A DNA stretch of 64,000 nt from Amaurobius ferox (taxonomy: Eukaryota > Arthropoda > Arachnida > Araneae > Amaurobiidae), in NCBI GenBank assembly GCA_951213105.1, contig OX578140.1, forward strand, positions 119,209,653-119,273,652. Reading direction: 5' to 3'. The notes beneath the pieces were generated by a model that was given only the letters and a program-made list of their open reading frames with translations, ran no database searches and was not told the DNA's origin. Made by a program: the position numbers and the translations under genes. Shown here piece after piece: positions 19,291 through 59,455 of the stretch (positions within the stretch are counted from its first letter, which is position 1; the number at the start of each line of letters is the position of its first letter).

Positions 19291-19829
19291 TAACTAGCCA
19301 TTTTAAATCCTATCATGAATGAACATAATCAGGGATCATAGCAGATTTTCTAAAAATTTTAGGTAGGAATTTAAGGAATTTTTTTCAAAATTTTAGGAAA
19401 ATTTTAAGAGCTAATTTTTATTATTTCTATTATTAGTTAAGTTTAATTACCGTTCTTTTCATTAATTAAAGGTGAATTGATACAAAAAACAAACATCATT
19501 GAAAGAAAAGGGTAATCTTTTGAATATTTTTCCAATTTAATTTCTCATTTTAATGCCCTGTAGACTTGAAAAGTCAAATTATCACTTAGTATCCAGTGGC
19601 TACTTTATCACAGGTATTTTTTGTGTAAATATATACATACATACACATTATATATATGTATGTTAGAAAAATGTTAGTTTAGTTTTCAAGCAACTTTATA
19701 TAAACAGAAAAAGAAAATCTTAATATAATTAACAAAAAAAGAATCCAAAAAGCTCAAAATCACATTTAAAATGTTTAAAGAATTGTAAAATAAAATACGG
19801 CCATAAGAAAAATCTAGCTGGAAAGTTAG

Positions 19830-20165
19830 TAGTTATTGCATGTAACGTACAAGCAATGCATGCACCCGCGCAGCGGGCGGACTTAAAGCAAATAATGCTA
19901 ATAAAAGCCAATTTATTTTGGGAAAAGTGTTTATTTGTTAGCCTTGAACCCTCGTAATGGGCTGGAATGCGATTGACAGCTATTTCAAATCTATGCAGAT
20001 TGCATGTACCCGCGCAGCGTGTATATCGTTATTACATGAAGTAGAATTGTCGTTATTGCATATATCGTACGTGGATTGCATGCACCAGCTAATAAAAGAC
20101 GATTCATTTTATACGCAGCAGCTGTATCATTACCCGTGTGCCCGCATTGCGGTCGGAAATGCGAT
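19830..20165 (+). repeat. Two diverged ~220-bp units at the left of the satellite array
   Basis: The two units start near 19831 and 20052. Both contain TTATTGCATRTA(A)CGTAC, a GGATTGCATGCACC-like block, GCTAATAAAAG and an ending GCGATTGACAGCTA that also occurs in the 63-bp monomers that follow. They look like a composite ancestor or neighbour of the array. The matching part of copy 2 is 47788-48145 and is interrupted at its left edge by a solo LTR. Confidence 0.6.
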
Positions 20166-20398
20166 TGACAGCTACTTAATGAGTTAGCCATAAATTCCGT
20201 GCGTAGCTGAGGTTTGTGATCGACAGTAACTTCATAAACTGCATCATTAGCCGTGAATTGCACATGTTGCTACATCGTTAGCCATAACTTGCATGCGTAG
20301 GTGAGATATACGATTGACAGCTACTTCATGAACTGAACCGTTAGCCATAACTTGTGCGCGTAACGGAAACGTGCAATCAACAGCCACTTGATGAACTA
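20166..20398 (+). repeat. 63-bp satellite array, copy 1, segment 1
   Basis: Monomers follow the pattern TTAGCCATAACTTGCG, CGTAGCTGAGGTGTGCGAT, GACAGCTACTTCATGAACTG. Identity between neighbours is moderate. The segment ends with AACTA (20394-20398), the target duplication of the following LTR. Confidence 0.8.
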
Positions 20399-20771
20399 TG
20401 ATAAAAAAACTTTGGTTGTAAACAAAGCACGTATGTGAATCGGTCAATGTACGGTCTAAAATCCAAAAGATACTTCGTTATGATTGGCTAATCGTTTTCA
20501 ATAGCTTGTTAAGAAGTTTCACCCCCCATGGTCTGTGGTCCTGCAAATTGAGACGTCAACTTCTGGTTTATGCTAATTTCTACTTCAACTGATTAGAGAT
20601 TAGCATACTCTGGAAGGAAAACATTAACTACGACTTCAATGATACTGAGCTATTTAAGCTAGTGCTTGTATCAGTTGATTGTCTATCTTCTCTCTCTATC
20701 TTGCTTCTGATGGAAACTTGGTTTTGTTTACGTCGCGATTCTCGTTTCGCGGGAGTTGACGTCATTATTAA

Positions 20772-22183
20772 CCCTTTCGCGCCGACTGTCACCTGTACGT
20801 GCCAGCAAGAAACGCACTCACTTCCCGGCCGACACGCCAGCGTGCAAGAGCGTTTTCTCATTCACCCCCGGCCGCCACCCATTAGTGCCAGTGTCCTGGA
20901 ACGTTTTAAAAACTAAAATTTTTGCCAGAAGATGGCATTATATGTCCATGTGGTTTCAGATACATGTAGATTTGACCTTCTACTCAAAATGAGAGTAGTA
21001 TGACTCACATACACGTGGTTTTTAGGGGGAAGGAATGAAGGAGAAAGGAATGTTTCCGAATGGCGTGAATTATACGGCTCTTTACATTCGCACGTGGTAT
21101 TTGTTTACAGTAAGCAGGGGAAGTTTTTTTTTCGCTACAGCTTTGGGTATTTCGATTTGCGGTCCAGTTTTTAGTGGATAGTTAGATCTTGTAGACGTAA
21201 ATTTTTTCTCTTTTTACCGTTAGAATGTCGAAGCGTCGAAAAATTTTAACTGAGATTGAAATAGCGGAAATGATGCAAAATATTTCAGATATTGATTCTG
21301 AAACAGATTCGGATAGTGACACTAAAATATATTCTGATTATTCTGCTCATAAAGAATCTAGCGAATCTAATGATGATGAGGACATTACTGATATCTGTAT
21401 GCCGAGTACATCGAAAGCAAGTACTTCTCCATGGTCATCCACAGTAGAAAATTTAACACAATTACCATTCAAAGCAGTGCCTGGACTAAAAGTGGATAAT
21501 TCGGTTGAAGAAGAAATTGATTTCTTTAGGCATTATTTTGATGATACAGTAATGAAATTAATTACGGAACAGACTAATCTGTATCAGAGAAGTATATATC
21601 CTGAGGATGCATCTGGTGCACGTTCTTCGAACTATTTACCTGTCACAGAGGAAGAAATGTTTGTTTTCTTTGCTCTAACAATTTTGATGGGCATTATAAA
21701 AAAACCCAAAATCAAAATGTACTTTTCAACGAATCCCATGCTTGCAACGCCATTTTTTAATAGCGTAATGAGTCATGATCGATACGTTGCAATTCTTCGA
21801 TGTTTGCATTTTGCCAGCAGCGATGCCAAAAAAATCGTTTTCAAATTTTTCATACGAAAAAAGAATTTTAAGTCCTATATTTAGTTTTCAGATATATAAT
21901 GTTAAAAGTTATTAAATGGTAAGTACATAGTGAAAATAAAATGTGTAAAATATATATTTAAACAAGAAATAACTTAAATAAATAAAGTATCTATAGAAAT
22001 ATATATAAAGCATATGCCATTTAAATATTCTACAGAACATTATTAAACAACGCGTTGATATTTCGGTAATTTCATGGATTTAGGCTTAACAGCAAAAAAC
22101 CCTCCGGCCGTGGACAGACACTCGCGAGAGAGACTGCCGGCCTCAGCGATAAGCGCACGTTTGCGCTTCGCGTCGCGAAAGGG
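20772..22183 (+). mobile_element. piggyBac-like element inserted in the Copia-1 LTR
   Basis: TTAA is found at 20768-20771 and 22184-22187, and the ends are CCCTTTCGCGCCG and, read inwards, CCCTTTCGCGACGCG. It is 1412 bp long. The empty site exists in the 3' LTR of Copia-1 copy 2, where TTAA stands alone at 49362-49365 with matching flanks. It carries only the N-terminal part of a transposase gene. Confidence 0.92.
21225..21884 (+). CDS. piggyBac transposase, N-terminal part only
   Basis: The frame encodes 219 residues starting MSKRRKILTEIEIAEMM. A Ser/Asp/Glu-rich leader extends to about residue 70. From about 95 the start of the DDE_Tnp_1_7 domain follows, with a 'FFRHYFDDTVMKLITEQTN' segment, then ILMGIIKKP and SVMSHDRYVAILRCLHF. 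Family proteins continue for another 300-400 residues with three catalytic Asp and a cysteine-rich tail. Here the frame stops after a low-complexity Lys/Phe end. The rest is deleted, so the product cannot transpose DNA. A remnant role as DNA-binding protein is conceivable but unsupported. Confidence 0.88.
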   Translation: MSKRRKILTEIEIAEMMQNISDIDSETDSDSDTKIYSDYSAHKESSESNDDEDITDICMPSTSKASTSPWSSTVENLTQLPFKAVPGLKVDNSVEEEIDFFRHYFDDTVMKLITEQTNLYQRSIYPEDASGARSSNYLPVTEEEMFVFFALTILMGIIKKPKIKMYFSTNPMLATPFFNSVMSHDRYVAILRCLHFASSDAKKIVFKFFIRKKNFKSYI

Positions 22184-23086
22184 TTAAAATGATTTTTCCG
22201 TTCTCGTGAACGAATCGCGATGTGGACAAAACTTGGCTTATCATGCAAATCACCTTTCTCACCGCTCACGCATCCTGTTTTGCATATCCAGAGGGTGTTG
22301 CCGGCAACGGTTATGTTCCGGAACGCACCCATCGTCGGATATAAAGGCTAGACACTTTTCTGGTTTAAGGTAGATCGCTAGATCGCTTGACATCACGGAA
22401 GCTCGCTTGATAGCTTGTTTGATAGATCAGCCAGACGGATCGATATACTGATCGACGGAAGGATCTAGAAGGATCTAGATCGGGCAGACGGATCTACATA
22501 AAGTCATGTTCGACGTAGTCGAAGGTTACGATAAATGTTTATCGGTGGACGCGGATGTTTAAATTAAACTAAGTAGTTTTTGTGGTTCTCAGTTATGGAG
22601 ACCATGTTTTCCGTGTTGTGGACTTTATCTAGTACTGATCCGGGAAGTTTAAAGTTTTTGCCATAACGTGTGCCCAGCTAGTGGTGGCGTCGGAAATTGC
22701 ACGTGGTTACGTAAGTTGAAATGTTTTATTCTACTTACTCGTGTAAATACTGCTTAAACCAGAAACGTGTCTAAGCGTGGAACTATTACTGAAAGCCTTC
22801 AAATGAGCTGTAGAGCTCATTTTTTGTACATAGCATGCTTTGTTTTGCTTTACTGTTTTTCATGAAATATTTTGTAAGCAAATGCAACGGATTCACTCTT
22901 CAATAAAAGTGATTTTGAACTAAACTGGAACTGTTCTCCTTTAACACCTCTACAGCTACTTGTATTTCTACAACTACCCTTTGACTTTGTTATAGCTGCA
23001 ACACTACTTAAATTTTCAACGAACATTTGATTTAACTTATATAATATAATATATACCAACAAGGTTATTTTATAAATTTGCCATCA

Positions 23087-23101
23087 GGTTATGGGCCCAG
23101 T
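23087..23101 (+). other. Copia-1 primer-binding site (initiator tRNA-Met half)
   Basis: GGTTATGGGCCCAGT follows the LTR directly. It is complementary to the anticodon arm of initiator tRNA-Met (CTGGGCCCATAACC). Drosophila copia uses the same internal tRNA fragment as primer. The second copy has it on the minus strand at 54150-54164. Confidence 0.85.
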
Positions 23102-23184
23102 GCTCCCCATAACAACGTTAAAAATTCAGAAGTGTTAGTGTTCCAGCAAAGAATCCTGTCGACGGGGGCCGCGGACGGCGCCAT

Positions 23185-26100
23185 TTGCATGTCGACGAAA
23201 GCATAAACAAAAAACTGTTCAGTTCAGTTCCAAAAGGCCACCTTGCCATGGAGGCAAATAAAATTAGTGCATTAACAAGAGACAATTACGTCACGTGGAG
23301 GAATGAAGTTTCATTCGCTCTGAAAGGAGAGGGCTGTTTCGGATTTGTAGACCGAACAGCGTTACCGGTGGATGATAAGACGTCATGGCGTGATTATGAA
23401 GAACACATGCGCAGAAAGGACCGCACGTTAGCGATCCTGTTCCAGAACGTTTCATCTGACTACCAAGAGTTAATTGACATTAACGACGATCCGGCAGATG
23501 CGTGGGATAAGTTAAAAACGCACTTCGAAGCGCCGACTCGCGCCAACCTAGTGCGCTTACTGGATGACTTCTTCAGCCTGCGTCCGGAGCCAGATGAACC
23601 TGTGGATATCTTCTGCACACGTCTAAAGAAAGCGGTCACCAAACTGAAGAACGTTAAGCACGAGGTGGAAAGCGTCTATGTGGCATTCCAGGCCATTAGA
23701 TACCTCTCGGACGACTTTCAAGGAATGGTCCAACAAATCTACAGATGGGAGGACAAGGATTTCACTTTGGAGAAAATCCAACATGAATTGTCAGAGGAGG
23801 AAGGACGTATCCGGCAACTCCATAGTGACAGAAACAACGTAAGTCAGAATTCATCTGTATTCTTGTCTCAAAGTAATGTAAATGTAAAATGTAAAAATAA
23901 CAAAGTGTTTAAAAATGTTAAACCAGTTAAAAAGGTCATAGGACCGTGTTATTTTTGTAAAAAGGCTGGTCATTTAAAGAGAAATTGCCCTACTCTTAAG
24001 TCTAGCTCAAATATAATTGAATTATATTCTTCTGCTAGAATTGAAGCAAATACTGTGCAGGATCCTAGCGATAGACTCAGCTGGGTAATTGACACCGCTG
24101 CTATGCGGCACTTTTGCAATGATATTAATCTATTCTCAAAATTTAAGGAAAGCAAAGGTGCATCTATGTCGCTAGCAATGGGTGATATTGAGAGCCCAGT
24201 TGAGGCTATCGGTACGGTCAAAATGTTTGTTCAGTTTAAGAACATAAGAAGTGATATTGTTTTGTCTGATGTAATGTTTTCGCCTAAGTTAAGACGAAAC
24301 TTATTAGCCGCATCTGTTCTTGAGGAACAGGGGTATACATTTAAAGGGGCTAATGGGGTATTGTGGTTTTACACTCCAAAGGGAGAAAAATTCTTCTATT
24401 CTAAACGAAAAGAAGGCTTATATTTTTTAAAACCTCAATACGAAGTTCAGACTGTAAATAACAATATTGAAGACCGTAAAACTAAAGGAAAGGATCAGGA
24501 TAGGGATAAAGATTCTAAGAAAGATAGAAAACCCCTAAATAAGAAAAACAGTATTAACAAAATGAAAAATTTGCCTAGTTTAAATAAAAGTAAACATAAC
24601 TCTGAGGTGAAGTCGAGGTCAAAAGGAAAAGTTAATGATAAACCAAGTTGTTCGGTTTCTGAGGTTTTAAATAAAACGGAACTCTGGCATAGGAGATATT
24701 GCCACATTAACACTGATTATTTATATCAGACAAGTAAAGTTTCCGCAGCTAATGGACTCCCTAGACTAAAATATGCAAAAATTAACTGTACACATTGTAA
24801 GTTAGCAAAGTCTAAGAGAATTTCTTTTAAGCCAATTGGTAGGATAAGGTCCACTAAACCTTTACAATTACTCCATATGGATGTGTGTGGTCCCTTACCT
24901 ACAGCTTCAATGGGCGGAAACAGATACTTTTTGACAATAACTGACGACTTCAGCCGGAAAGTGTTTGTGTATATAATGAAACAAAAATCAGAGGTGTTTA
25001 GAATATTTAAGGAATTCCAAGCTAAGGAAGAGAGGCAGCTAGGCAAAAAGATTTTGTGTATCCGTACGGACAATGGTATCGAGTTCTGTCATAACCAGTT
25101 CAAGGCATGCTTAAATAAATTGGGGATTAAATCAGAAAGGTCAAATGTATATACGCCCGAACAGAACGGGGTTTCTGAGAGATTTAATCTAACTGCACTA
25201 GATTGTGTAAAAGCTATGCTTGATCAAAGTCAGGTTGATAACAGGATGTGGGCAGAAGCGATTTTGTGTTTTACACACACCAAGAACAGGATATGTCATA
25301 AGTTCAAAACCAAAACTCCACACGAGTTATATTATGGAAGGAAGCCAACCGTTGCTCACCTCAAAGTTTTTGGGTGCAAACCCTATGTGGGCACAGCCAA
25401 ACAAATCAGGAATAAGTTGGATATGAGAGCCCAAGTAGGAATTATGGTCGGTTATGCCGAAAGCACCAAAGGCTATAGGATTTATATAGCAAGTAAAAAG
25501 AAAGTTGAGGAAACTTGTAATGTAAGATTTGAGGAAGGAGAGGCAGCGGAAGGCGTCCTGGGCCCTAATTACCCTAAAGGAATCACCTTGAGGAAATCGA
25601 ACGTTACTCAGTCGATTGACTCTGAATCAGAATGCTTGGGAGGAGTGTCAGAGGAAGAAGCAGGTGAGAGCCGTGACACTAGTGAATCTAGTGGGGATGA
25701 GGACTCTCCTGCTGATTCTGGTCTGACACCCTGCTCAGATATTAACTGGATACGGAAAGCAGTACCTAGGCCTGATGGGAGTAGGACGGATATTTACTAC
25801 TCAGTAAAAGGTGACAATAAAAGGCTGAGATCTCACAATGATGTCAGAAAGTTTTGTGGAAAAGCTGACATTCATTATGATCAGCAAATGTTTAATTTTA
25901 GAGAGAAAAAGGGGGTAAGTGATATCAAAAGAAAACCGGAAGCAAGCAATGTTGAGATCTTGATACCCAAGAGCTATAGATCGGCAATAGAATCTCCCCA
26001 GTCCGATAAATGGCAAGAAGCCATGGATGATGAAATAGCTACAATGCAGGAGAGGGGTGTCTGGGACTTAGTGCCTGCACCCATCTCACAACAAAAAATT

Positions 26101-26721
26101 ATCAGAAGTAGATGGGTTTATACCATTAAGAAGGATGAAAGGGGAAATGTCAAAAGATTCAAAGCTCGCCTAGTAGCTCAAGGATATACCCAGATAAAGG
26201 GGGACTCATATGATGAAGTGTTTAGCCCTGTGATTAATTTTAGTTTAATCAGAGCCTTCTTCTCCATATTCGTTTGCATGCTTAAATGGAAACATTTTCA
26301 ACTGGACATTAAGTCCGCATATCTTTATGCAAAGTTGAATGATAAAATTTTTTTGAAACAATCACATGGATATGTCGATCCAAACCAGCCTCAATATGTT
26401 TGTTTACTTAAGAAAGCAATATATGGCCTTCACCAAAGCGGAAGGGAATGGTATACAGAGCTTGACACCACCTTGAAAAAATTGAACTTTTTTAAATTTA
26501 AATGGTGCAACTGTGCTTATATATATCAGAATAAAGTATTAATGCTGGTTTACGTAGACGATATAATTTTGTTTGCTAAACAACAAAATGATATAGACCA
26601 TACTGTTTCACTTTTGAGTAAAGAGTTTGATATCAAAGAATTAGGAAAAGTCAAAAGACTTTTGGGTGTGGAATTTAAAGATAGAGTTTTTAAATTTAGT
26701 AATGATATCTTTAAAATGTAA
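23185..26721 (+). CDS. Copia-1 gag-pol polyprotein, intact, without RNase H
   Basis: This is one open frame of 1178 codons. The likely real start is M22 (23248, MEANKISAL) because Copia Gag proteins begin at that alignment point. Gag occupies about 22-230, with a zinc knuckle C255-x2-C258-x4-H263-x4-C268 and the protease motif DTAA at D303. A Lys/Asp/Arg-rich linker follows (~425-490). Next come the integrase zinc motif (H502, H507, C535, C538), the integrase triad D566, D629, E665 (35 residues between the last two), and a reverse transcriptase with YVDD at 1123-1126. The frame stops at FKFSNDIFKM, shortly after the reverse transcriptase; the usual RNase H domain (about 150 residues) is absent. 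All catalytic residues that are present look intact. Confidence 0.94.
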   Translation: MHVDESINKKLFSSVPKGHLAMEANKISALTRDNYVTWRNEVSFALKGEGCFGFVDRTALPVDDKTSWRDYEEHMRRKDRTLAILFQNVSSDYQELIDINDDPADAWDKLKTHFEAPTRANLVRLLDDFFSLRPEPDEPVDIFCTRLKKAVTKLKNVKHEVESVYVAFQAIRYLSDDFQGMVQQIYRWEDKDFTLEKIQHELSEEEGRIRQLHSDRNNVSQNSSVFLSQSNVNVKCKNNKVFKNVKPVKKVIGPCYFCKKAGHLKRNCPTLKSSSNIIELYSSARIEANTVQDPSDRLSWVIDTAAMRHFCNDINLFSKFKESKGASMSLAMGDIESPVEAIGTVKMFVQFKNIRSDIVLSDVMFSPKLRRNLLAASVLEEQGYTFKGANGVLWFYTPKGEKFFYSKRKEGLYFLKPQYEVQTVNNNIEDRKTKGKDQDRDKDSKKDRKPLNKKNSINKMKNLPSLNKSKHNSEVKSRSKGKVNDKPSCSVSEVLNKTELWHRRYCHINTDYLYQTSKVSAANGLPRLKYAKINCTHCKLAKSKRISFKPIGRIRSTKPLQLLHMDVCGPLPTASMGGNRYFLTITDDFSRKVFVYIMKQKSEVFRIFKEFQAKEERQLGKKILCIRTDNGIEFCHNQFKACLNKLGIKSERSNVYTPEQNGVSERFNLTALDCVKAMLDQSQVDNRMWAEAILCFTHTKNRICHKFKTKTPHELYYGRKPTVAHLKVFGCKPYVGTAKQIRNKLDMRAQVGIMVGYAESTKGYRIYIASKKKVEETCNVRFEEGEAAEGVLGPNYPKGITLRKSNVTQSIDSESECLGGVSEEEAGESRDTSESSGDEDSPADSGLTPCSDINWIRKAVPRPDGSRTDIYYSVKGDNKRLRSHNDVRKFCGKADIHYDQQMFNFREKKGVSDIKRKPEASNVEILIPKSYRSAIESPQSDKWQEAMDDEIATMQERGVWDLVPAPISQQKIIRSRWVYTIKKDERGNVKRFKARLVAQGYTQIKGDSYDEVFSPVINFSLIRAFFSIFVCMLKWKHFQLDIKSAYLYAKLNDKIFLKQSHGYVDPNQPQYVCLLKKAIYGLHQSGREWYTELDTTLKKLNFFKFKWCNCAYIYQNKVLMLVYVDDIILFAKQQNDIDHTVSLLSKEFDIKELGKVKRLLGVEFKDRVFKFSNDIFKM

Positions 26722-27826
26722 AATTTAACTGTTCAAATAGAAATTTTACTTTAAATTTTTTTTTTTCACATTTTCAAAGTATAAATGGTTAGGGTATCTT
26801 ATGATTTATTCCTCTCTCATTGATACAAATGAAATGTATCTTGAGTATATATTGTTATGTGACAATGAACTGTTACTTTTCTCACATTACACTTGAAAAA
26901 TATATATCCATTTTTACTACACGCATAACGCATTTTTGCTTATGTGAATAAAATATGTGTCTGAATGTACATTATTGATATAATTCACATGAATCATGAA
27001 ATTTTTAATCTGTGCTTATCTCATATGTATGTTTACCTTCTGTATCTTTTATTATCATTGCCATTGTATTGGGTATTTATTGTGTATACTAGTCATAGGC
27101 TAAGATAATAAGACTTAAAATTTTTTAATCTTAAATGTTAAATTTCATAGTTATACACTAAATTTTCTACAACTTGAATTTAATGTTTGGACTTAAATTT
27201 TTAATCTTAAATGTTAAATTTAATAGTTATACATTACATTTTCTACAACTTGAATTTGATGTTTGGACTTCAAATTTTTAATCTTAAATGTTAAATTTCA
27301 TAGTTATACACTAAATTTTCTACAACTTGAATCTGATATGTATAATAAATTTTTTAATCTTTAATATTAAATTTAATAACTATACCTAAATTTTCTAGAG
27401 CTTAAATTTTTGATATCTTAGATTTTTAAATTTTAAACTTAATGTTTCTATAAATTTTCAAAATAGTAAAGAAATAGCTTTCTTTAGTATGAGCTAGTAC
27501 TTTAGAAAGGGCAATAGTATGGTTATACTCAGTTTCTTTTACTATGTTATCCTTAAACATGTAATTTAAAGAATGCTTATGATCTGCATTATAGAGAAGT
27601 GTACTTATTTGATTGTTGCCATTTTGAGATATAGAAAAGGCTGTTCACTTTCTAGAATGTTATAAGTATTATAAATTTCTTTAATGTATAAAATTTTGTG
27701 TATGCATACATTATGTTTTTAGGATACTAAGAACCTTGACATTTTTGACCTTGATTCTTAGAGTAACCTTTTGTTGGATGAAAGCATGGGCGCCGAGAGT
27801 TGGTGTTTTTGCATGAGGGGGCCGAT
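26722..27826 (+). other. Copia-1 3' non-coding segment with ~76-bp tandem repeats
   Basis: In place of RNase H this holds AT-rich DNA full of stops in all frames. From about 27112 to 27345 three units of ~76 bp repeat (ACTTAAATTTTTAATC, AATGTTAAATTT, ATAGTTATACA, TTTCTACAACTTGAAT), followed by a degenerate fourth. It ends in the purine-rich GAGGGGGCCGAT before the 3' LTR. Copy 2 has the same segment at 49427-50529, so it belongs to the family. Confidence 0.8.
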
Positions 27827-28744
27827 TGTTGGAAACTTGGTTTTGTTTACGTCGCGTGAACGAATACGTCGTTGGTTTTGTTTACGTCGTGAACGAATCG
27901 CAATGTGGACAAAACTTGGCTTATCATGCAAATCACCTTTCTCGCCGCTCACGCATCCTGTTTTGCATATCCAGAAGGCGTTGCCGGCAACGGTTATGTT
28001 CCGGAACGCACCCATCGTCGGATATAAAGGCTAGACACTTTTCTGGTTTAAGGTAGATCGCTAGATCGCGGTAGCTCGCTTGATAGATCAGCCAGACGGA
28101 TCGATATACTGATCGACGGCAGGATCTAGAAAGATCTAGATCGGGCAGACGGATCTACATAAAGTCATGTTCGACGTAGTCGAAGGTTACGATAAATGTT
28201 TATCGGTTGACGCGGATGTTTAAATTAAACTAAGTAGTTTTTGTGGTTCACAGTTATGGAGACCATGTTTTCCGTGTTGTGGACTTTATCTAGTGCTGAT
28301 CCGGGAAGTTTAAAGTTTTTGCCATAACGTGTGCCCAGCTAGTGGTGGCGTCGGAAATTGCACGTGGTTACGTAAGTTGAAATGTTTTATTCTACTTACT
28401 CGTGTAAATACTGCTTAAACCAGAAACGTGTCTAAGCGTGGAACTTTTACTGAAAACCTACAAATGAGCTGTAGAGCTCATGTTTTTGTACATAGCATGC
28501 TTTGTTTTGCTTTACTGTTTTTCATGAAATATTTTGTAAGCAAATGCAACGGATTCACTCTTCAATAAAAGTGATTTTGAACTAAACTGGAACTGTTCTC
28601 CTTTAACACCTCTACAGCTACTTGTATTTCTACAACTACCCTTTGACGTTGTTATAGCTGCAACACTAAATTTTCAACGAACATTTGATTTAACTTATAT
28701 AATATAATATATACCAGCAAGGTTATGTTATAAATTTGCCATCA
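27827..28744 (+). repeat. Copia-1 copy 1, 3' LTR
   Basis: It begins TGTTGGAAACTTGG and ends TTTGCCATCA (918 bp). Its first ~80 bp differ from the 5' LTR: a GTTTTGTTTACGTCG motif is repeated and the palindromic CTCGTTTCGCGGGAG block is missing. From the octamer on (ATGCAAAT near 27926) it resembles the other LTRs, with a TATA box at about 28021-28028. Confidence 0.9.
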
Positions 28745-28819
28745 GCTTCGTCTTCGTGATATAACATCATGATTACGTTTGATCGGTATCTTCATGTACG
28801 CCGGTTATGACAATATTAA

Positions 28820-29491
28820 CCCTTTCAGGATGGCGGTCCAAAAGACGAAGCGCTTCGCTTCCGAACTGGTCCCAAAGGACGGTGCATTTTTTGCGCTAAG
28901 CCTAACTCTCGAAAATAATTCGCTAAAAATCACCTATTCCACACAGAAATCTACTTTTTTCAGGAATAAAAGAAATATTTATGTTCTATTTGATGTATAA
29001 TTTTCATACAAATCTGAATACAAAATACTCGTTAGTTGCTCCCATTCTTTTATCCGAAATAAACGAATAATTTCACTGCCTCTAAAACTCAAAAAAAAAA
29101 AAAAAAATACTCTCTTATATTCCTATGATTCACCAACGAAATCACAACGCTGAAATAAAAATAAAAACCGAAACTCAATTATAAAATTGTTGATGCTACG
29201 AGAACTGCTCTGTTTGTTTATATTACAAAATGATTTTAACCGCTCCAAATGGAGAAATAATTCATTCGATCCTCTTCTGCCACGGTCATGCCTCTGCAAA
29301 ATACATTGGAGTTAGTTCCACGGACATGGAACGCCATCTAGTAGACAAATTAAAACGTTCCGCGTGGTGGCACTTATAGGTGCCACTATCCGCTTGCGGT
29401 AAAATTTCCTCCGGCCTGAGTGCGTGCCGTTCGTCCTTGAATGATGCAAGTTCGCAGCTGGCACGTGGGTGTGCCGATCGTCGCGAAAGGG
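28820..29491 (+). mobile_element. piggyBac MITE (672 bp) inside the family-2 solo LTR
   Basis: TTAA at 28816-28819 and 29492-29495 flank the ends CCCTTTCAGGATGGCG and, read inwards, CCCTTTCGCGACGATCGGC. It is a short relative of the derivatives at 1788-3976 and has no coding sequence. Three related LTRs show the uninterrupted TTAA (30363-30366, 35568-35571, 47519-47522). Confidence 0.9.
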
Positions 29492-29763
29492 TTAATGGAC
29501 GATGCTTGTTAGGCCTGAACTGCTGTTAAGTCTACTGTAATTTTTCAAGACTTGTGTTTAAAGTATTCAACGATTTGCAAATATCTTTTCCAAGTTATGG
29601 AAAGTGATATAGTCTTATGTTATTTTAATGTTTCGAGTTCGTGAAAAATAAATTTCGTTTTTTTATTCACGTTGACTATTTTCTGCTTACATCCGCTACG
29701 ACACTCTGCTAACATCTGGGTTTTTTTAATGGATAAATTCCAATAAATTTCAAGTAACTAGCA

Positions 29764-30095
29764 AACTATACCGTTAGCCGTAAGTTGCGCACGTAGCTGA
29801 GATAAGATAGCTACTTCATCAACTGTACCGTTAGCCGTGACTTGGATGTAAGTAGCTGAGGTGTGCAATTGACAACTGCTGTATCAACTGCACCGTTAGC
29901 CATGACTTGCGCACATAACGAAGGCGTGCGATCGACATCTACTCCATGAACTTCACCAGTAACCACGATTTATGCGTGTAGCTAAGGTATGCAATAGACA
30001 GCTACTTAATGAACTGAACCATTAGTTATGACTTGAGTGCATAACGGAGACGTGAGATCGACAGCTACTTCGTGAAATACATCGTTAGCCGTAAT
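29764..30095 (+). repeat. 63-bp satellite array, copy 1, segment 2: one full five-monomer unit
   Basis: Five consecutive monomers can be told apart and return in the same order in copy 2. A reads CGTTAGCCGTAAGTTGCG and ends ATCAACTGTA; B has CAACTGCTGTATCAACTGCA; C has CATAACGAAGGCGTGCGATC and CATCTACTCCATG; D has ACCACGATTTATGCGTGTAG; E has ATTAGTTATGACTTGAGTGC. The next A monomer is cut by Copia-2 at GTAAT (30091-30095). Confidence 0.85.
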
Positions 30096-35176: not shown

Positions 35177-35298
35177 TTTCGTACACTGCTGCTGCAGTCC
35201 CCGTCTCGGGGCTCGTTCGTCTTTCCTTGATGTTTTGAAACTACTTCGCTGATACTAGTTTGCTGATATACAAGGGCTGCTAGGGTCCATAACCCACG

Positions 35299-40080: not shown

Positions 40081-40117
<37 letters not shown>

Positions 40118-48145: not shown

Positions 48146-48488
48146 CCATAAATTCCGCGCATTGCTGAGGTGTGTGATCGACAGTAATTTCATAAACTGC
48201 ATCATTAGCTGTGAATTGCGCATGTTGCGATATCGTTAGCCATAACTTGCGTGCGTAGCTGAGGTGTGCGATTGACAGCTACTTCATGAACTGCACCGTT
48301 AGTTATAACTTGCGTGCGTAACGGAAACGTGCAATCAACAGCCACTTGATGAACTATATCGTTAGCTGTAACTTGCGCATGTAGCTGAGGTAAATAGCTA
48401 CTTCATCAACTGTACCGTTAGCCGTGACTTGGCCGCGTATCTGAGGTGTGCAATTTACAACTGCTATATCAACTGCACCATTAGCCAT
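48146..48488 (+). repeat. 63-bp satellite array, copy 2, segment 1
   Basis: Leading monomers are followed by A and B of the five-monomer order. It is uninterrupted at the place where copy 1 carries the 20399-29763 LTR. It ends at GCCAT (48484-48488), the target of Copia-1 copy 2. Confidence 0.83.
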
Positions 48489-49426
48489 TGATGGCAAATT
48501 TATAACATAACCTTGTTGGTATATATTGTATTATATAAGTTAAATCAAATGTTCGTTGAAAATTTAAGTAGTGTTGCAGCTATAACAACGTCAAAGGGTA
48601 GTTGTAGAAATACAAGTAGCTGTAGAGGTGTTAAAGGAGAACAGTTCCAGTTTAGTTCAAAATCACTTTTATTGAAGAGTGAATCCGTTGCATTTGCTTA
48701 CAAAATATTTCATGAAAAACAGTAAAGCAAAACAAAGCATGCTATGTACAAAAACATGAGCTCTACAGCTCATTTGAAGGCTTTCAGTAATAGTTCCACG
48801 CTTAGACACGTTTCTGGTTTAAGCAGTATTTACACAAGTAAGTAGAATAAAACATTTCAACTTACGTAACCACGTGCAATTTCCGACGCCACCACTAGCT
48901 AGGCACACGTTATGGCAAAAACTTTAAACTTCCCGGATCAGCACTAGATAAAGTCCACAACACGGAAAACATGGTCTCCATAACTGAGAACCACAAAAAC
49001 CAATTAGTTTAATTTAAACATCCGCGTCAACCGATAAACATTTATCGTAACCTTCGACTACGTCGAACATGACTTTATGTAGATCCGTCTGCCCGATCTA
49101 GATCTTTCTAGATCCTTCCGTCGATCAGTATATCGATCTATCAAGCGAGCTACCGTGATCTAGAGATCTAGCGATCTACCTTAAACCAGAAAAGTGTCTA
49201 GCCTTTATATCCGACGATGGGTGCGTTCCGGAACATAACCGTTGCCGGCAACGCCCTCTGGATATGCAAAACAGGATGCGTGAGCGGCGAGAAACGTGAT
49301 TTGCATGATAAGCCAAGTTTTGTCCACATCGCGATTCGTTCACGAGAACGGAAAAATCATTTTAATAATGACGTCACGCTCCCGCGAAACGAGAATCGCG
49401 ACGTAAACAAAACCAAGTTTCCAACA
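48489..49426 (-). repeat. Copia-1 copy 2, 3' LTR
   Basis: The 938-bp LTR is complete, including the palindromic block around CTCCCGCGAAACGAG. It contains the unoccupied TTAA (49362-49365) that is the piggyBac target in copy 1. Confidence 0.9.
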
Positions 49427-50529
49427 ATCGGCCCCCTCATGCAAAAACACCAACTCTCGGCGCCCATGCTTTCATCCAACAAAAGGTTACTCTAAGAATC
49501 AAGGTCAAAAATGTCAAGGTTCTTAGTATCCTAAAAACATAATGTATGCATACACAAAATTTTATACATTAAAGAAATTTATAATACTTATAACATTCTA
49601 GAAAGTGAACAGCCTTTTCTATATCTCAAAATGGCAACAATCAAATAAGTACACTTCTCTATAATGCAGATCATAAGCATTCTTTAAATTACATGTTTAA
49701 GGATAACATAGTAAAAGAAACTGAGTATAACCATACTATTGCCCTTTCTAAAGTACTAGCTCATACTAAAGAAAGCTATTTCTTTACTATTTTGAAAATT
49801 TATAGAAACATTAAGTTTAAAATTTAAAAATCTAAGATATCAAAAATTTAAGCTCTAGAAAATTTAGGTATAGTTATTAAATTTAATATTAAAGATTAAA
49901 AAATTTATTATACATATCAGATTCAAGTTGTAGAAAATTTAGTGTATAACTATGAAATTTAACATTTAAGATTAAAAATTTGAAGTCCAAACATCAAATT
50001 CAAGTTGTAGAAAATGTAATGTATAACTATTAAATTTAACATTTAAGATTAAAAATTTAAGTCCAAACATTAAATTCAAGTTGTAGAAAATTTAGTGTAT
50101 AACTATGAAATTTAACATTTAAGATTAAAAAATTTTAAGTCTTATTATCTTAGCCTATGACTAGTATACACAATAAATACCCAATACAATGGCAATGATA
50201 ATAAAAGATACAGAAGGTAAACATACATATGAGATAAGCACAGATTAAAAATTTTATGATTCATGTGAATTATATCAATAATGTACATTCAGACACATAT
50301 TTTATTCACATAAGCAAAAATGCATTATGCGTGTAGTAAAAATGGATATATATTTTTCAAGTGTAATGTGAGAAAAGTAACAGTTCATTGTCACATAACA
50401 ATATATACTCAAGATACATTTCATTTGTATCAATGAGAGAGGAATAAAATATAAGATACCCTAACCATTTATACTTTGAAAATGTGAAAAAAAAATTTAA
50501 AGTAAAATTTCTATTTGAACAGTTAAATT

Positions 50530-53500
50530 TTACATTTTAAAGATATCATTACTAAATTTAAAAACTCTATCTTTAAATTCCACACCCAAAAGTCTTTTGA
50601 CTTTTCCTAATTCTTTGATATCAAACTCTTTACTCAAAAGTGAAACAGTATGGTCTATATCATTTTGTTGTTTAGCAAACATAATTATGTCGTCTACGTA
50701 AACCAGCATTAATACTTTATTCTGATATATATAAGCACAGTTGCACCATTTAAATTTTAAAAAGTTCAATTTTTTCAAGGTGGTGTCAAGCTCTGTATAC
50801 CATTCCCTTCCGCTTTGGTGAAGGCCATATATTGCTTTCTTAAGTAAACAAACATATGGAGGCTGGTTTGGATCGACATATCCATGTGGTTGTTTCAAAA
50901 AAATTTTATCATTCAACTTTGCATAAAGATATGCGGACTTAATGTCCAGTTGAAAATGTTTCCATTTAAGCATGCAAACGAATATGGAGAAGAAGGCTCT
51001 GATTAAACTAAAATTAATCACAGGGCTAAACACTTCATCATATGAGTCCCCCTTTATCTGGGTATATCCTTGAGCTACTAGGCGAGCTTTGAATCTTTTG
51101 ACATTTCCCCTTTCATCCTTCTTAATGGTGTAAACCCATCTACTTCCGATAATTTTTTGTTGTGAGATGGGTGCAGGCACTAAGTCCCAGACACCCCTCT
51201 CCTGCATTGTAGCTATTTCATCATCCATGGCTTCTTGCCATTTATCGGACTGGGGAGATTCTATTGCCGATCTATAGCTCTTGGGTATCAAGATCTCAAC
51301 ATTGCTTGCTTCCGGTTTTCTTTTGATATCACTTACCCCCTTTTTCTCTCTAAAATTAAACATTTGCTGATCATAATGAATGTTAGCTTTTCCACAAAAC
51401 TTTCTGACATCATTATGAGACCTCAGCCTTTTATTGTCACCTTTTACTGAGTAGTAAATATCCGTCCTACTCCCATCAGGCCTAGGTACTGCTTTCCGTA
51501 TCCAGTTAATATCTGAGCAGGGTGTCAGACCAGAATCAGCAGGAGAGTCCTCATCCCCACTAGATTCACTAGTGTCACGGCTCTCACCTGCTTCTTCCTC
51601 TGACACTCCTCCCAAGCATTCTGATTCAGAGTCAATCGACTGAGTAATGTTCGATTTCCTCAAGGTGATTCCTTTAGGGTAATTAGGGCCCAGGACGCCT
51701 TCCGCTGCCTCTCCTTCCTCAAATCTTACATTACAAGTTTCCTCAACTTTCTTTTTACTTGCTATATAAATCCTATAGCCTTTGGTGCTTTCGGCATAAC
51801 CGACCATAATTCCTACTTGGGCTCTCATATCCAACTTATTCCTGATTTGTTTGGCTGTGCCCACATAGGCTTTGCACCCAAAAACTTTGAGGTGAGCAAC
51901 GGCTGGCTTCCTTCCATAATATAACTCGTGTGGAGTTTTGGTTTTGAACTTATGACATATCCTGTTCTTGGTGTGTGTAAACCACAAAATCGCTTCTGCC
52001 CACATCCTGTTATCAACCTGACTTTGATCAAGCATAGCTTTTACACAATCTAGTGCAGTTAGATTAAATCTCTCAGAAACCCCGTTCTGTTCGGGCGTAT
52101 ATACATTTGACCTTTCTGATTTAATCCCCAATTTATTTAAGTATGCCTTGAACTGGTTATGACAGAACTCCATACCATTGTCCGTACGGATACACAAAAT
52201 CTTTATGCCTAGCTGCCTCTCTTCCTTAGCTTGGAATTCCTTAAATATTCTAAACACCTCTGATTTTTATTTCATTATATACACAAACACTTTCCGGCTG
52301 AAGTCGTCAGTTATTGTCAAAATGTATCTGTTTCCGCCCATTGAAGCTGTAGGTAAGGGACCACACACATCCATATGGAGTAATTGTAAAGGTTTAGTGG
52401 ACCTTATCCTACCAATTGGCTTAAAAGAAATTATCTTAGACTTTGCTAACTTACAATGTGTACAGTTAATTTTTGCATATTTTAGTCTAGGGAGTCCATT
52501 AGCCGCGGAAACTTTACTTGTCTGATATAAATAATCAGTGTTAATGTGGCAATATCTCCTATGCCAGAGTTCCGTTTTATTTAAAACCTCAGAAACCGAA
52601 CAACTTGGTTTATCATTAACTTTTCCTTTTGACCTCGACTTCACCTCAGAGTTATGTTTACTTTTATTTACACTAGGCAAATTTTTCATTTTGTTAATAC
52701 TGTTTTTCTTATTTAGGGGTTTTCTATCTTTCTTAGAATCTTTATCCCTATCCTGATCCTTTCCTTTAGTTTTACGGTCTTCAATATTGTTATTTACAGT
52801 CTGAACTTCGTATTGAGGTTTTAAAAAATATAAGCCTTCTTTTCGTTTAGCATAGAAGAATTTTTCTCCCTTTGGAGTGTAAAACCACAATACCCCATTA
52901 GCCCCTTTAAATGTATACCCCTGTTCCTCAAGAACAGATGCGGCTAATAAGTTTCGTCTTAACTTAGGCGAAAACATTACATCAGACAAAACAATATCAC
53001 TTCTTATGTTCTTAAACTGAACAAACATTTTGACCGTACCGATAGCCTCAACTGGGCTCTCAATATCACCCATTGCTAGCGACATAGATGCACCTTTGCT
53101 TTCCTTAAATTTTGAGAATAGATTAATATCATTGCAAAAGTGCCGCATAGCAGCGGTGTCAATTACCCAGCTGAGTCTATCGCTAGGATCCTGCACAGTA
53201 TTTGCTTCAATTCTAGCAGAAGAATATAATTCAATTATATTTGAGCTAGACTTAAGAGTAGGGCAATTTCTCTTTAAATGACCAGCCTTTTTACAAAAAT
53301 AACACGGTCCTATGACCTTTTTAACTGGTTTAACATTTTTAAACACTTTGTTATTTTTACATTTTACATTTACATTACTTGGAGACAAGAATACAGATGA
53401 ATTCTGACTTACGTTGTTTCTGTCACTACGGAGTTGCCGGATACGTCCTTCCTCCTCTGACAATTCATGTTGGATTTTCTCCAAAGTGAAATCCTTGTCC

Positions 53501-54066
53501 TCCCATCTGTAGATTTGTTGGACCATTCCTTGAAAGTCGTCCGAGAGGTATCTAATGGCCTGGAATGCCACATAGACGCTTTCCACCGGGTGCTTAACGT
53601 CCTTCAGTTTGGCGACCGCTTTCTTTAGACGTGTGCAGAAGATATCCACAGGTTCATCTGGCTCCGGACGCAGGCTGAAGAAGTCATCCAGTAAGCGCAC
53701 TAGGTTGGCGCGAGTCGGCTCTTCGAAGTGCGTTTTTAACTTATCCCACGCATCTGCCGGATCGTCGTTAATGTCAATTAACTCTTGGTAGTCAGATGAA
53801 ACGTTCTGGAACAGGATCGCTAACGTGCGGTCCTTTCTGCGCATGTGTTCTTCATAATCACGCCGTGACGTCTTATCATCCACAGGTAATGCTGTTCGGT
53901 CTACAAATCCGAAACAGCCCTCTCCTTTCAGAGCGAATGAAACTTCATTCCTCCACGTGACGTAATTGTCTCTTGTTAATGCACTAATTTTATTTGCCTC
54001 CATGGCAAGGTGGCCTTTTGGAACTGAACTGAACAGTTTTCTGTTTATGCTTTCGTCGACATGCAA
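50530..54066 (-). CDS. Copia-1 gag-pol polyprotein, copy 2, one nonsense codon
   Basis: Same 1178-codon frame and domain order as copy 1: Gag, CCHC knuckle, DTAA protease, integrase and reverse transcriptase with YVDD, ending at FKFSNDIFKM. One CAA codon in the integrase, shortly after TITDDFSRK, is TAA here (52267-52269), which splits the frame into 54066-52267 and a downstream part to 50530. No frameshift was seen. Without the stop it would be as complete as copy 1; with it only Gag, protease and the start of the integrase can be made. Confidence 0.92.
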
Positions 54067-54164
54067 ATGGCGCCGTCCGCGGCCCCCGTCGACAGGATTC
54101 TTTGCTGGAACACTAACACTTCTGAATTTTTAACGTTGTTATGGGGAGCACTGGGCCCATAACC

Positions 54165-55055
54165 TGATGGCAAATTTATAAAATAACCTTGTTGGTATAT
54201 ATTATATTATATAAGTTAAATCAAATGTTCGTTGAAAATTTAAGTAGTGTTGCAGCTATAACAAAGTCAAAGGGTAGTTGTAGAAATACAAGTAGCTGTA
54301 GAGGTGTTAAAGGAGAACAGTTCCAGTTTAGTTCAAAATCACTTTTATTGAAGAGTGAATCCGTTGCATTTGCTTACAAAATATTTCATGAAAAACAGTA
54401 AAGCAAAACAAAGCATGCTATGTACAAAAACATGAGCTCTACAGCTCATTTCAAGGCTTTCAGTAATAGTTCCACGCTTAGACACGTTTCTGGTTCAAGC
54501 AGTATTTACACAAGTAAGTAGAATAAAACATTTCAACTTACGTAACCATGTGCAATTTCCGACGCCACCACTAGCTGGGCACACGTTATGGCAAAAACTT
54601 TAAACTTCCCGGATCAGCACTAGATAAAGTTCACAACACGGAAAAAATGGTCTCCATAACTGAGAACCACAAAAACTACTTAGTTTAATTTAAACATCCG
54701 CGTCAACCGATAAACATTTATAGTAACCTTCGACTACGTCGAACATGACTTTATGTAGATCCGTCTGCCCGATCTAGATCCTTCTAGATCCTTCCGTCGA
54801 TCAGTATATCGATCCGTCTGGCTGATCTATCAAGCAAGCTATCAAGCGAGCTACCGTGATCTAGCGATCTAGCGATATACCTGAAACCAGAAAAGTGTCT
54901 AGCCTTTATATCCGACGATGGGTGCGTTCTGGAACATAACCGTTGCCGGCAACACCCTCTGGATATGCAAAACAGGATGCGTGAGCGTCGAGAAAGGTGA
55001 TTTGCATGATAAGCCAAGTTTTGTCCACATCGCCAACAAAACCAAGTTTCCAACA
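54165..55055 (-). repeat. Copia-1 copy 2, 5' LTR (shortened)
   Basis: The 891-bp LTR has TATA and octamer motifs in place. The block between GTCCACATCGC and CAACAAAACCAAG is deleted by about 74 bp, which removes the palindromic CTCGTTTCGCGGGAG region and the piggyBac target. Confidence 0.88.
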
Positions 55056-55060
55056 GCCAT

Positions 55061-55228
55061 GACTTGCACGCGTAACGAAGGCGTGCGATCGACATCTACT
55101 CCATGAAATGCACTGGTAACCACGATTTATGCGTGTAGCTGAGGTATGCGATAGACAGCTACTTAATGAACTGAACCATTAGTTATGACTTGAGTGCATA
55201 ATGGAGACGTGCGATCAGCAGCTACTTC
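55061..55228 (+). repeat. 63-bp satellite array, copy 2, segment 2
   Basis: It holds C, D and E of the five-monomer order, continuing exactly where Copia-1 interrupted B/C. It ends at ACTTC (55224-55228), the target of the next solo LTR. Confidence 0.83.
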
Positions 55229-55992
55229 TGTTGGAAAAAATCAATACATCGCGATTCACGTTTCCGTGAACGGGCGTTTATGCAACATGAGGTTTCATGC
55301 AAACAGTTCTCAATGCGTACGCATCTGATTTGCATATCCGGGGGCATTTCCGGAACAGTCCATTCTCGGATATATAAGGCAGAGATTTCTTGAAGCAAAC
55401 ATCAGTCAGCGAGAGTTTCCCACTCAGTCTGATCCAGAACGGAGCGGAGAAGGCTTTGTAAGACATAAACACTGATGGTCTGATGCAGGCAGACAGAAAT
55501 GCCTTAGACAGAAACACTGCAGGATATCGTTTGACGACGGTTTTTAGTCGAGACGGACGCAGAGATGGTCAGTTTAGACCAGTATGTATTGAACATTAAA
55601 TTTACTTACATGTGTCTGGAAATTACGTTAAATATTCTTCTGATGTCTTATCCTTTGGTTTTCCTTTGCCAAGTGTGATACCTTCAATGGTGGCTGCAAA
55701 TACACGCAAGAGATAGAGGTAGTATAGTTACTTACTACCCATGCTTCAAGGAATTTCTGTCTGATTATTTACAACTGCAAACTTTTTGTACATAGTATTT
55801 TTTGATGTTTTGTGGCATGGAAACCTGGAATGTGTAACTTGCCTAGTTATGTTTCTCACGAAATAAAGTGAACGATGTTTTTCTTTGAAACTGGATCTGC
55901 ATACTTTTATGACCCAGCCAACACTTATTGACTCTATGCCAGTGCGTACTTTGCTGTTCATCTTGCTTCTTCAAATTTTAAATTTTCCAACA
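55229..55992 (+). mobile_element. Solo LTR, fourth Copia-type family
   Basis: It begins TGTTGGAAAAAATCAATAC and ends TTTTAAATTTTCCAACA, flanked by ACTTC (55224-55228, 55993-55997). It is 764 bp and contains TTTGCATATCCGGGGGC and the TATA box GGATATATAAGG (about 55368-55379). It is related in promoter layout to the LTR at 36165 but diverged elsewhere. Confidence 0.85.
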
Positions 55993-56208
55993 ACTTCATG
56001 AACTACATCGTTAGCCGTAATTTGCGCGCGTAGCTGAAATAGACAGCTACTTCATTAAATGTACCATTAGCCGTGATTTGCCCACGTAGCTGAGGTGGGC
56101 GAATGACAGCTACTTCATCAACTGCACCGTTAGCCATGACTTGCGAGAGTAACGAAGACGTGCAATCGACATCTTTTCTATGAAATGCACTGCTAGCCAC
56201 GATTTATG
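55993..56208 (+). repeat. 63-bp satellite array, copy 2, segment 3
   Basis: It continues with A, B, C and part of D of the second five-monomer unit and ends at TTATG (56204-56208), the target of the following LTR. Confidence 0.83.
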
Positions 56209-57289
56209 TGTTGGAAACTTGGTTTTGTTTACGTCGCGATTCTCATTTCGCGGGAGTGTGACGTCATTATAATAAATGATTTTTCCGTACTCGTGAACGA
56301 ATCGCGATGTGAACAAACTGGGATTTTCATGCAAATCACCTTCTCGCCGCTCACGCATCCTGCTTTGCATATCCAGGGGGCGTTGCCGGCAATGGTTGTG
56401 TTCCGGAATGAACCCATCATCGGATATAAATGCTGGACACACTTTTGGTTTAAGCAGATCAACGTTAAGTCAGATTGATGTTAAGGAAATCAACTTTCAG
56501 TTAGATCGACATTCAGTTTGATCGATCGGATCACGGAGAGATCACTCAGACGGACTTGACCGTCAGACCTTGTAAAGGTTGTTGCCTAATTTAGAGTCTA
56601 GTTCGGGGATGTCGAATGTTTGGATAATGTTTATCGTAGACGCGGATGTTTGATTCAAGTAATAGTGGAACTTATGTTTTTATGGTTCTCAGTCAAAGAG
56701 ACCATGTTGTTCCGTGTTGTGGACTCAGTGCAATGTTAATCCGTGAAGTTTAAAGTTTTAGTAGTAGTGTGTGACCAGCTATTGGTGGCATCGGGAAATG
56801 CACGAAGTTTACGCAAGTCTAAAAAGCTTTTGTTCTACTTAGCTGTTGCTTAAACCTAGAATGTATCTAAGCTTGGAACTATACCGAAATCTTACGCTTG
56901 AGCTTGAGAGCTCAAATACTTGTACATAGTATGCTTGCTTTGTGTTACAATGTCTGAAGTGCATGTAAGCAAACGCAATGGATTCGCTTCATAATAAAAA
57001 GTGATTTGACTTAAATTGGAACTGCTTTTTTCTACACCTCTACAATTAGTTTGTATTAGTTTACAATTGCCTTTGACATTGTTACTACCGCTACTCTGCT
57101 TAATACCTTCATGGTTACTTTAAATTTTTCATGACCAATCTACAACACTAATGGGCCCAATCAAAGTCATGAATATACCAGTGAAGTCGTTCAACTCAAA
57201 TTTTTAACTTGCTCTCACAGCTTATTAACTTCAACGAGATACATTCTAATCTGTTTATATTAGAATATTATATACCTTGTATACCAGCA
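56209..57289 (+). mobile_element. Solo LTR related to Copia-1
   Basis: It begins TGTTGGAAACTTGG like Copia-1 and keeps the CTCATTTCGCGGGAG, ATGCAAAT, TTTGCATATCC and GGATATAAATGC motifs, but its 3' half is different (ends GTATACCAGCA). TTATG flanks it (56204-56208, 57290-57294). At 1081 bp its second half was later duplicated together with adjacent satellite sequence. Confidence 0.85.
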
Positions 57290-57834
57290 TTATGCGTGTA
57301 GTTGAGGTGTGCACGAAGTTTACGTAAGTCTAAAAAGCTTTTGTTCTACTTAGCTGTGTATTTCAAAGGATTGCTTAAACCTAGAATGTATCTAAGCTTG
57401 GAACTATACCGAAATCTTACGCTTGAGCTTGAGAGCTCAAATACTTGTACATAGTATGCTTGCTTTGTGTTACAATGTCTGAAGTGCATGTAAGCAAACG
57501 CAATGGATTCGCTTCATAATAAAAAGTGATTTGACTTAAATTGGAACTGCTTTTTTCTACACCTCTACAATTAGTTTGTATTAGTTTACAATTGCCTTTG
57601 ACATTGTTACTACCGCTACTCTGCTTAATACCTTCATGGTTACTTTAAATTTTTCATGACCAATCTACAACACTAATGGGCCCAATCAACGTCATGAATA
57701 TACCAGTGAAGTCGTTCAACTCAAATTTTTAACTTGCTCTCACAGCTTATTAACTTCAACGAGATACATTCTAATCTGTTTATATTAGAATATTATATAC
57801 CTTGTATACCAGCATTATGCGTGTAGTTGAGGTG
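56799..57834 (+). repeat. 511-bp tandem duplication covering LTR 3' half and flank
   Basis: 56799-57309 is repeated as 57310-57834. Both units run from TGCACGAAGTTTACG through the LTR end to GTGTAGTTGAGGTG. The second unit has 14 additional bases (GTATTTCAAAGGAT) and very few substitutions. At the joint the satellite GAGGTGTGC meets the LTR TGCACGAAG, so only three bases of homology were needed. Confidence 0.88.
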
Positions 57835-58105
57835 TGCGATAGACAGCTACTTCACGAACTGAACCATTAGTCATGACTTGAGCGCGTAACGGAGATGTGC
57901 AATCGACAGCTACTTCATGAACTACATCATTAGCCGTAACTTGCGTGCGTAGCTGAGGTATAAGATCAACACTTCATAAATTGCACACTCAGCCGTGACT
58001 TGCGCACGTAACATAGGTGTGCGATCGACAGTTACTTTATGAACTGCCCCGTTATTTATGGCTTGCGTCGCAAAGGTGCACGATCGACAGCTACTACAAG
58101 AAAGG
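57815..58105 (+). repeat. 63-bp satellite array, copy 2, segment 4 (array end)
   Basis: It holds the rest of D, E, A and the two terminal monomers, the last truncated at AGCTACTACAAGAAAGG as in copy 1. The retroposon found in copy 1 is absent here. Confidence 0.8.
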
Positions 58106-59455
58106 TATTGCAAGTTTAAAAACTTTTTCAAAAACAATAGGGCGGGTCGCCGAAGGCAGTAATTAAATAATATGAGGGAAATAAGTTATCCTATATTTCA
58201 TCAAAGCTACTGCAATGCGTTAATCTAGACACAGCTATATCCCTCTTCAATCATCCTCTTTTTGGATAGAATCAACAAAAACACATACACAAGTTCCTGC
58301 GGCTCAAAGGAACTCTAGGCCACAGAAAACTATATTTTTAAATATTGGTTTTTGAGCAAATATTCTTACAGAGTTCAAATCTTTGGTACTTTTCATCCCA
58401 GATACATACTAAACATGGAATAATTTGAAAAAATTTTAAGTTTAAAAAGAAATGAAAACTGTTTAAAAGTTTTATCTGTTGGAAGCGGGAATGTGTTTAT
58501 TTAACATTCTTCACATTTCTGCTCTTTCATTGTTTTTAATTTATTTTTTATGGGGAGTGTGGAGATCCAATTGCGGGACCTCCCTACTATGCCGTATTTT
58601 ATTTTATCCATTGCTTTTCTTCATAAACTGCTATGTGGTCCAGGCCCCTACGCAATGCATCCTTTTGAAGAGATATCCTTTAATATCATCAATGCCTAGA
58701 GAGGTTGCTAACAGCAGACAAAAATTCCTTCTCTACTCTCCTGTTTTGACATGATGTTGATCAAATATTACGCAATGAGGGGCATAAGAGAATCATAATC
58801 CGACTAACTATATTTGTATTATTGGATTTAGACCTAAAATTCTTAAAATTTTTGCACACAATTAATTCCCAACAAAGAATAGCTGAGCAAAATTTTAACT
58901 TTGCAAAGAAAGAGAAACTTCGTGATTTATCTAGTAAATATGAGGAAGCACACTATTCAACAATTGAACCCGTCTTTTTCTATTTTATTTCTTTGAGAGG
59001 TTAAAAGCTTCTAGGTTTGTTATCTTGCGCTGGAGATTCCTAAGATATCCTATGGAGATTCCCACTCCCACAAACAAAAGAATCTCCCCCAAACTCTGGT
59101 CGTAAATGATCAAGTGGGTCGCCATTCGTCTTGCGATCGTATTTCACTAAAACCGCCCACGGACGGAGAGGATTTAACCATTAAGAATCGGCGATTTTGT
59201 TGTGATTGACACTTTTGTCGTCTTTGACTTTGTAAAACATGAGTGCTATTTTGAACAATGTTTTAATTTCTGAAGTCTTTTTTAACATCGATTGCCGTAT
59301 GAATGGAATGTATTCGGCTGATAGTAGAGTAAATTTGATGCCGCAGCTAACATTACAAAATTTTAGGATGATTTTAAAAAATAATTTTAGGTTAATTTTA
59401 AGAATTCAAGGGAAGCTTCAAACTTTTAGGAATTTTAGGGCGAATGCGATCCCTG

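Follow-up and report, generated by a model that had tools for sequence, protein, structure and literature searches.

Three described systems come close to the locus analysed here. The title of one study reports the capture of a functionally active methyl-CpG-binding domain (MBD) by an arthropod retrotransposon family (de Mendoza, Pflueger and Lister, 2019, Genome Res 29:1277). In Arabidopsis, integration of the Copia element Tal1/ATCOPIA93 is biased towards satellites by the C-terminal region of its integrase, as described in excerpts of two reports (PMC12859917; PMC5857280), and partial accounts of the Cg_HINE Helentrons (PMC7492417) and of the foldback element Tetris (PMC4079207) portray non-autonomous DNA elements with internal tandem repeats that are spread by transposition. 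Here we describe a stretch of 64,000 nucleotides from the spider Amaurobius ferox (GenBank assembly GCA_951213105.1, contig OX578140.1, positions 119,209,653 to 119,273,652 of the forward strand), referred to as the window, where two copies of a DNA element, termed E1 and E2, each carry an array of 63-bp monomers and where six of seven primary long terminal repeat (LTR) insertions have landed in these arrays. In the interpretation that we favour, and to which we assign about an even chance of being correct, a CpG-dense and probably methylated array, which travels as part of a DNA element, attracts Copia elements that carry an MBD.

The copies E1 (19330..38886) and E2 (46664..59455) both reside on the forward strand and share the ends CAGGGATC...GATCCCTG, which resemble terminal inverted repeats (TIRs), with the four occurrences of CAGGGATC in the window coinciding with the four element ends. 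After removal of inserts by script, E1 amounts to 3405 bp (3183 bp without a 208-bp insert termed X) and E2 to 3208 bp, and the two can be aligned end to end, with identities of 94.4% left of the array, 91.5% within it and 94.7% to its right, at a distance K of 0.056–0.058. E1 is flanked by CATAAT/CATAAT, a match over 6 bp, and E2 by CAAAAT/CAGAAT, a match in five of six positions, and the target-site duplication thus probably comprises 6 bp. Past these few bases the flanks are dissimilar, indicating that the copies originate from separate insertions. The element is presumably non-autonomous, as no transposase was found in its sequence, whose sole own open reading frame (ORF) of at least 110 residues from stop to stop (38442-38798, 118 residues) was itself unsearched. 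An assignment as hAT element was rejected since neither copy shows a matching 8-bp duplication. Helentron/HINE elements are characterised by subTIRs, a 3' palindrome and the lack of a target duplication, and E shows a probable duplication of 6 bp. No tRNA or Rfam content was detected at gathering level, three stretches submitted to NCBIfam gave no match, and, of exact patterns representing array or element copies, two were absent from a collection of viral contigs and one from a collection of genome contigs, which are not arthropod genomes so that this absence weighs little.

The arrays are located on the forward strand, in E1 at 20182..20398, 29764..30095, 35931..36164, 37102..37243 and, as a diverged end, 37452..37572, and in E2 at 48141..48488, 55056..55228, 55993..56208 and 57815..58117. 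A higher-order period of 308 bp was detected by Tandem Repeats Finder in E1 and is the top lag in E2, while in the lag analysis of E1 it is outscored by lags of 63 and 619. Classification as classical satellite, with long homogenised arrays, was rejected for a repeat that extends over about 1.0 kb per copy, with monomers about 83% identical to their consensus. Instead, the colinearity of the arrays of E1 and E2 suggests that they travel as cargo of a mobile element, unlike a satellite that undergoes homogenisation.

All seven primary LTR insertions are bordered by exact 5-bp duplications. The array of E1 is interrupted by A1, a solo LTR of family A carrying nested elements (20399-29763, forward strand, AACTA), by the full-length Copia A2, whose reading frame is broken (30096-35930, reverse strand, GTAAT), and by the solo LTR E (36165-37101, forward strand, AACTG). 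The array of E2 contains the full-length Copia B2 (48489-55055, reverse strand, GCCAT) and the solo LTRs F (55229-55992, forward strand, ACTTC) and C (56209-57814, forward strand, TTATG), whereas the solo LTR A3 (47163-47789, forward strand, GTTAT) is positioned about 350 bp to the left of this array. LTR C carries a later tandem duplication of about 0.5 kb (56799-57837, 97% alike), a local event that covers the LTR end together with some 20 bp of array. Nested in the LTR of A1 is an eighth Copia, B1 (20708-28744, forward strand, GCTTC). In the alignment of E1 and E2, each of the seven sites is uninterrupted in the opposite copy and the insertions thus occurred independently, after the two copies had separated. 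The distances between LTR pairs, with a K of 0.061 in A2, 0.039 in B1 and 0.025 in B2, compared to that between E1 and E2, suggest that these events were spread over a long time. The LTRs are of five kinds in three groups, A, B with C, and E with F, with B and C sharing 71% identity over 437 bp and 88% over 166 bp, and E and F 81% over 125 bp. Families A and B belong to Ty1/Copia: Copia B shows the domain order Retrotran_gag_2, rve, SH3_retrovirus and RVT_2 and Copia A is of the same class in broken pieces, whereas C, E and F are known as LTRs only and were classified from their LTR ends, their 5-bp duplications and, for C, the kinship to B. An earlier note, made from the same window, had claimed two direct element copies with 63-bp arrays, seven primary insertions of which six are in arrays and at least four LTR families, all of which our analysis bears out. 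It had overlooked insert X.

Whether the remaining window is as free of Copia LTRs as the same note had stated depends on what can be recognised. The five LTR kinds were searched for throughout the window and were found in E1 and E2 only, and a tblastn search of the whole window with 120 listed Copia relatives traced Copia pol to the three long elements alone, each of which lies within E1 or E2. To this extent the statement holds, whereas solo LTRs of unknown families in single-copy DNA would escape detection. Herein lies the basis of a rather unlikely alternative, in which the pattern reflects chance combined with uneven detection, as E1 and E2, and likewise the array, act as their own templates, self-comparison would not recognise such solo LTRs elsewhere, and the window with its seven insertions was picked by a reader for its pattern. 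Insertions do exist outside of E, including a BEL/Pao block (5286-16619, AGCAT) and a 1.4-kb element with an 8-bp duplication (39739-41164). A generic scan for solo Copia LTRs, based on TGTTRG starts and 5-bp duplications, yielded numerous chance pairs in DNA outside of E and was used as evidence neither for nor against. We have quantified the enrichment in tests that are all post hoc, with seven insertions in one window and a hypothesis derived from the same data. If the E inserts are subtracted from the window along with the BEL block, leaving 26,708 bp in which detection is unequal, at least six of seven insertions in arrays would be expected with P = 1.3e-6. Within E1 and E2, where detection is equal and arrays account for 32% of the length, P is 0.0052 (0.0022 with a strict array definition), and 0.0019 (strict 0.0007) for seven of eight if insert X is counted. 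If a further 6862 bp of the window that have a paralogue within it are added, P is 7.8e-5. The latter tests, together with the restriction of the five LTR kinds and Copia pol to E1 and E2, argue against chance and uneven detection. With a target weighted by G+C, P is 0.017 within E1 and E2 and 4e-4 with the paralogous control DNA.

A possible mechanism for the presumed attraction of Copia elements to the array is suggested by its composition. With six CpGs in the consensus monomer, the array is the CpG-densest part of E, reaching 54.7 and 63.4 CpGs per kb in the two copies. The flanks of E, with 25.1 per kb, and the remainder of the window outside of E and BEL, with 19.6, are poorer, although stretches with Copia B LTRs and piggyBac-like DNA equal the array in density per kb. 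Among 80 aligned CpG sites in the arrays of E1 and E2, 41 are kept, 37 have turned into TpG or CpA and two show other changes, a rate of change that exceeds that of other C/G sites 2.5-fold (P = 7e-5). In the flanks, transitions account for 21 of 33 changed CpG sites, and the share of transitions is higher at array CpGs than at either flank CpGs (P = 0.001) or non-CpG sites of the array (P = 0.005). The proportion of CpG sites that have changed is, however, no higher in the array than in the flanks (39 of 80 compared to 33 of 71, P = 0.87). The near-exclusive occurrence of transitions is the pattern left by deamination of methylated CpG, and the CpGs of the array are thus probably methylated.

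A potential reader of such methylation is found in Copia B, whose pol carries an MBD between integrase and reverse transcriptase, at 25729..25926 in B1 (forward strand) and 51325..51522 in B2 (reverse strand). The motif is present in 57 of 120 listed relatives, and the organisms named among the best 65 of these relatives are spiders and one ant. A confident model of the structure confirms the domain by its match to solved MBDs, and the conserved R, D-Y and R-S positions line up with those of MBD1, which we take to be residues contacting DNA. The pol frames of B1 (23122-26721) and B2 (50530-54129) both contain a stop at residue 1199, with an additional stop at residue 620 in B2.

The arthropod retrotransposons equipped with an MBD reportedly favour CpG-dense methylated DNA and accumulate there. 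We envision that a TIR-ended non-autonomous element transports the CpG-dense array of 63-bp monomers, whose CpGs would probably be methylated in the germ line. The MBD of the Copia polyprotein, located just past the integrase, may bind the array and tether the retrotransposon, which would then integrate into the CpG-dense chromatin at no set phase of the monomer. In line with the last step, the centres of the six duplications in arrays are found at phases 1, 1, 14, 17, 22 and 56 of 63 and a phase preference was rejected as unproven (Rayleigh P = 0.18 for six insertions), which favours CpG content or chromatin over a sequence motif.

The lack of a detected phase preference would equally be expected if the array was inert or open DNA, in which any insertion occurs or survives in the absence of a Copia-specific tether. 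We regard such retention or accessibility as unlikely. It finds support in insert X (37244-37451, no strand assigned), which was placed in the array of E1 by a different class of element and, as judged from its 14-bp duplication ACACTTAGCCATGA, is probably a target-primed non-LTR insertion. Conversely, the BEL block and the element at 39739-41164 landed elsewhere, and the remaining window also appears non-genic, with eight of its 12 ORFs of at least 200 residues having been sent to Pfam and returning mobile-element families only, so that selective loss should differ little between the array and its surroundings. In the favoured reading, the enrichment would result from targeting and not from retention. 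The earlier note had proposed either targeted integration or protection of the insertions from loss. Targeting is supported in part, by the enrichment within the window and by the MBD of B as a plausible targeting module, and protection or retention without targeting is less probable. With an MBD located past the integrase in the sole family where this part of pol is readable, targeting is founded on more than analogy. In an improbable variant, the array would be targeted by different means, for instance through a factor bound to satellites or heterochromatin that the integrase recognises. There is precedent in the Copia element Tal1, which enters centromeric satellite via CENH3 chromatin by virtue of the C-terminus of its integrase, according to the same excerpts (PMC12859917; PMC5857280). 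At our locus, an MBD is already present past the integrase in B and its relatives, the array is the CpG-densest part of E and, as far as the window shows, the arrays are dispersed 1-kb pieces and not a centromeric block.

Several observations weigh against attraction of an MBD-carrying Copia to a methylated array, in addition to the post hoc nature of the tests. If the target is weighted by CpG count, P increases to 0.083 within E1 and E2 and to 0.0045 with control DNA, and CpG content may thus account for a large share of the excess. CpG-dense stretches outside of E and BEL reach 28 CpGs per 500 bp, and 2.5% of the 500-bp windows in this region contain at least 25, the minimum in the E1 array. 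The ratio of observed to expected CpGs in the arrays, 1.08 and 1.22, does not show the depletion expected from strong long-term methylation, and the insertion sites in arrays are no nearer to CpGs than random positions (P = 0.14–0.35). A3 is located outside of the array at an ordinary CpG level, B1, which bears an MBD, inserted into the LTR of A1 with about 16 CpGs per 500 bp around it, approximately half the level of the array, and insert X, for which no MBD is expected, is in the array. Concerning the domain, no Foldseek match was obtained at E≤0.001, a SUMO chain (0.0022) ranks ahead of MBD1 in a separate comparison, the domain of B itself scores 16.2 bits, below the Pfam cut-off of 21, and a Pfam search of the whole B ORF did not return an MBD at E≤1. 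Finally, the MBD is readable in family B only, as the stretch was not found in A2 and A1, A3, C, E and F are solo LTRs. Families A, C, E and F may nevertheless have, or have had, the same domain. This would be part of a more tentative proposal, which we consider possible but doubtful, where a methylated, CpG-dense array is dispersed by a mobile DNA element and acts as a portable landing pad that serves an entire guild of Copia families with an MBD.

The window contains further mobile DNA. A piggyBac-like element with TTAA ends and a DDE_Tnp_1_7 fragment (20768-22187, forward strand) splits the 5' LTR of B1, and a shorter one with the same ends (28816-29495, no strand assigned) is located in the LTR of A1. 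A third TTAA-end pair of this kind, TTAACCCT...AGGGTTAA (1784-2887), adjoins a near-palindrome of 502 bp (2636-3136). The BEL/Pao block consists of outer LTRs with a single 5-bp duplication, inverted arms of 4.25 kb that are 99.4% alike and extra LTR copies, and is either a fold-back of the assembly or an element of recent origin that is compound or has inserted into itself. The element at 39739-41164, with inverted ends GTAGCCCC... and the duplication AGTTTTCT, whose length makes it hAT-like, is contained in a repeat in common with positions 1-1047. A diverged tandem duplication (43338-45884, unit of about 1.25 kb) includes a 145-bp repeat, with a related piece near the window end (62172-62496).

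If the favoured reading is correct, one mobile element can provide the landing site of others, and the locus presents a possibly methylation-reading retrotransposon with a defined target, comprising a 63-bp unit, two copies and reciprocal empty sites, at which targeting, methylation and retention become separable by genome-wide counts. In case of a portable pad, one transposon would make a safe harbour and others would read its methylation, and copies of E would turn into nested Copia clusters throughout the genome. Among the publications listed in a literature search, which mostly excluded subscription journals, none describes an arthropod in which Copia elements have inserted into an array carried by a transposon. 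The novelty of the locus lies in the combination of an MBD-Copia, a satellite-bearing DNA element and satellite homing at one place, with reciprocal empty sites. The comparison with Ty1, Ty3 and Ty5 made in the earlier note is less apt than that with MBD-carrying arthropod Copia or Tal1. The former, to which the locus is likened by title, resemble Copia B in a pol with an MBD past the integrase and in relatives named from spiders, whereas the target is here a single CpG-dense array on a DNA element with six hits in about 2 kb. With Tal1 it shares the bias of a Copia element to tandem satellite arrays, although Tal1 tracks CENH3 chromatin in centromeres in place of dispersed 1-kb arrays combined with an MBD. 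Finally, E has its counterparts in Cg_HINE and Tetris, which according to the partial accounts are likewise non-autonomous and contain tandem repeats in their interior. It is distinguished from them by short inverted-repeat ends, a 6-bp duplication and an array that is located outside of the TIRs.

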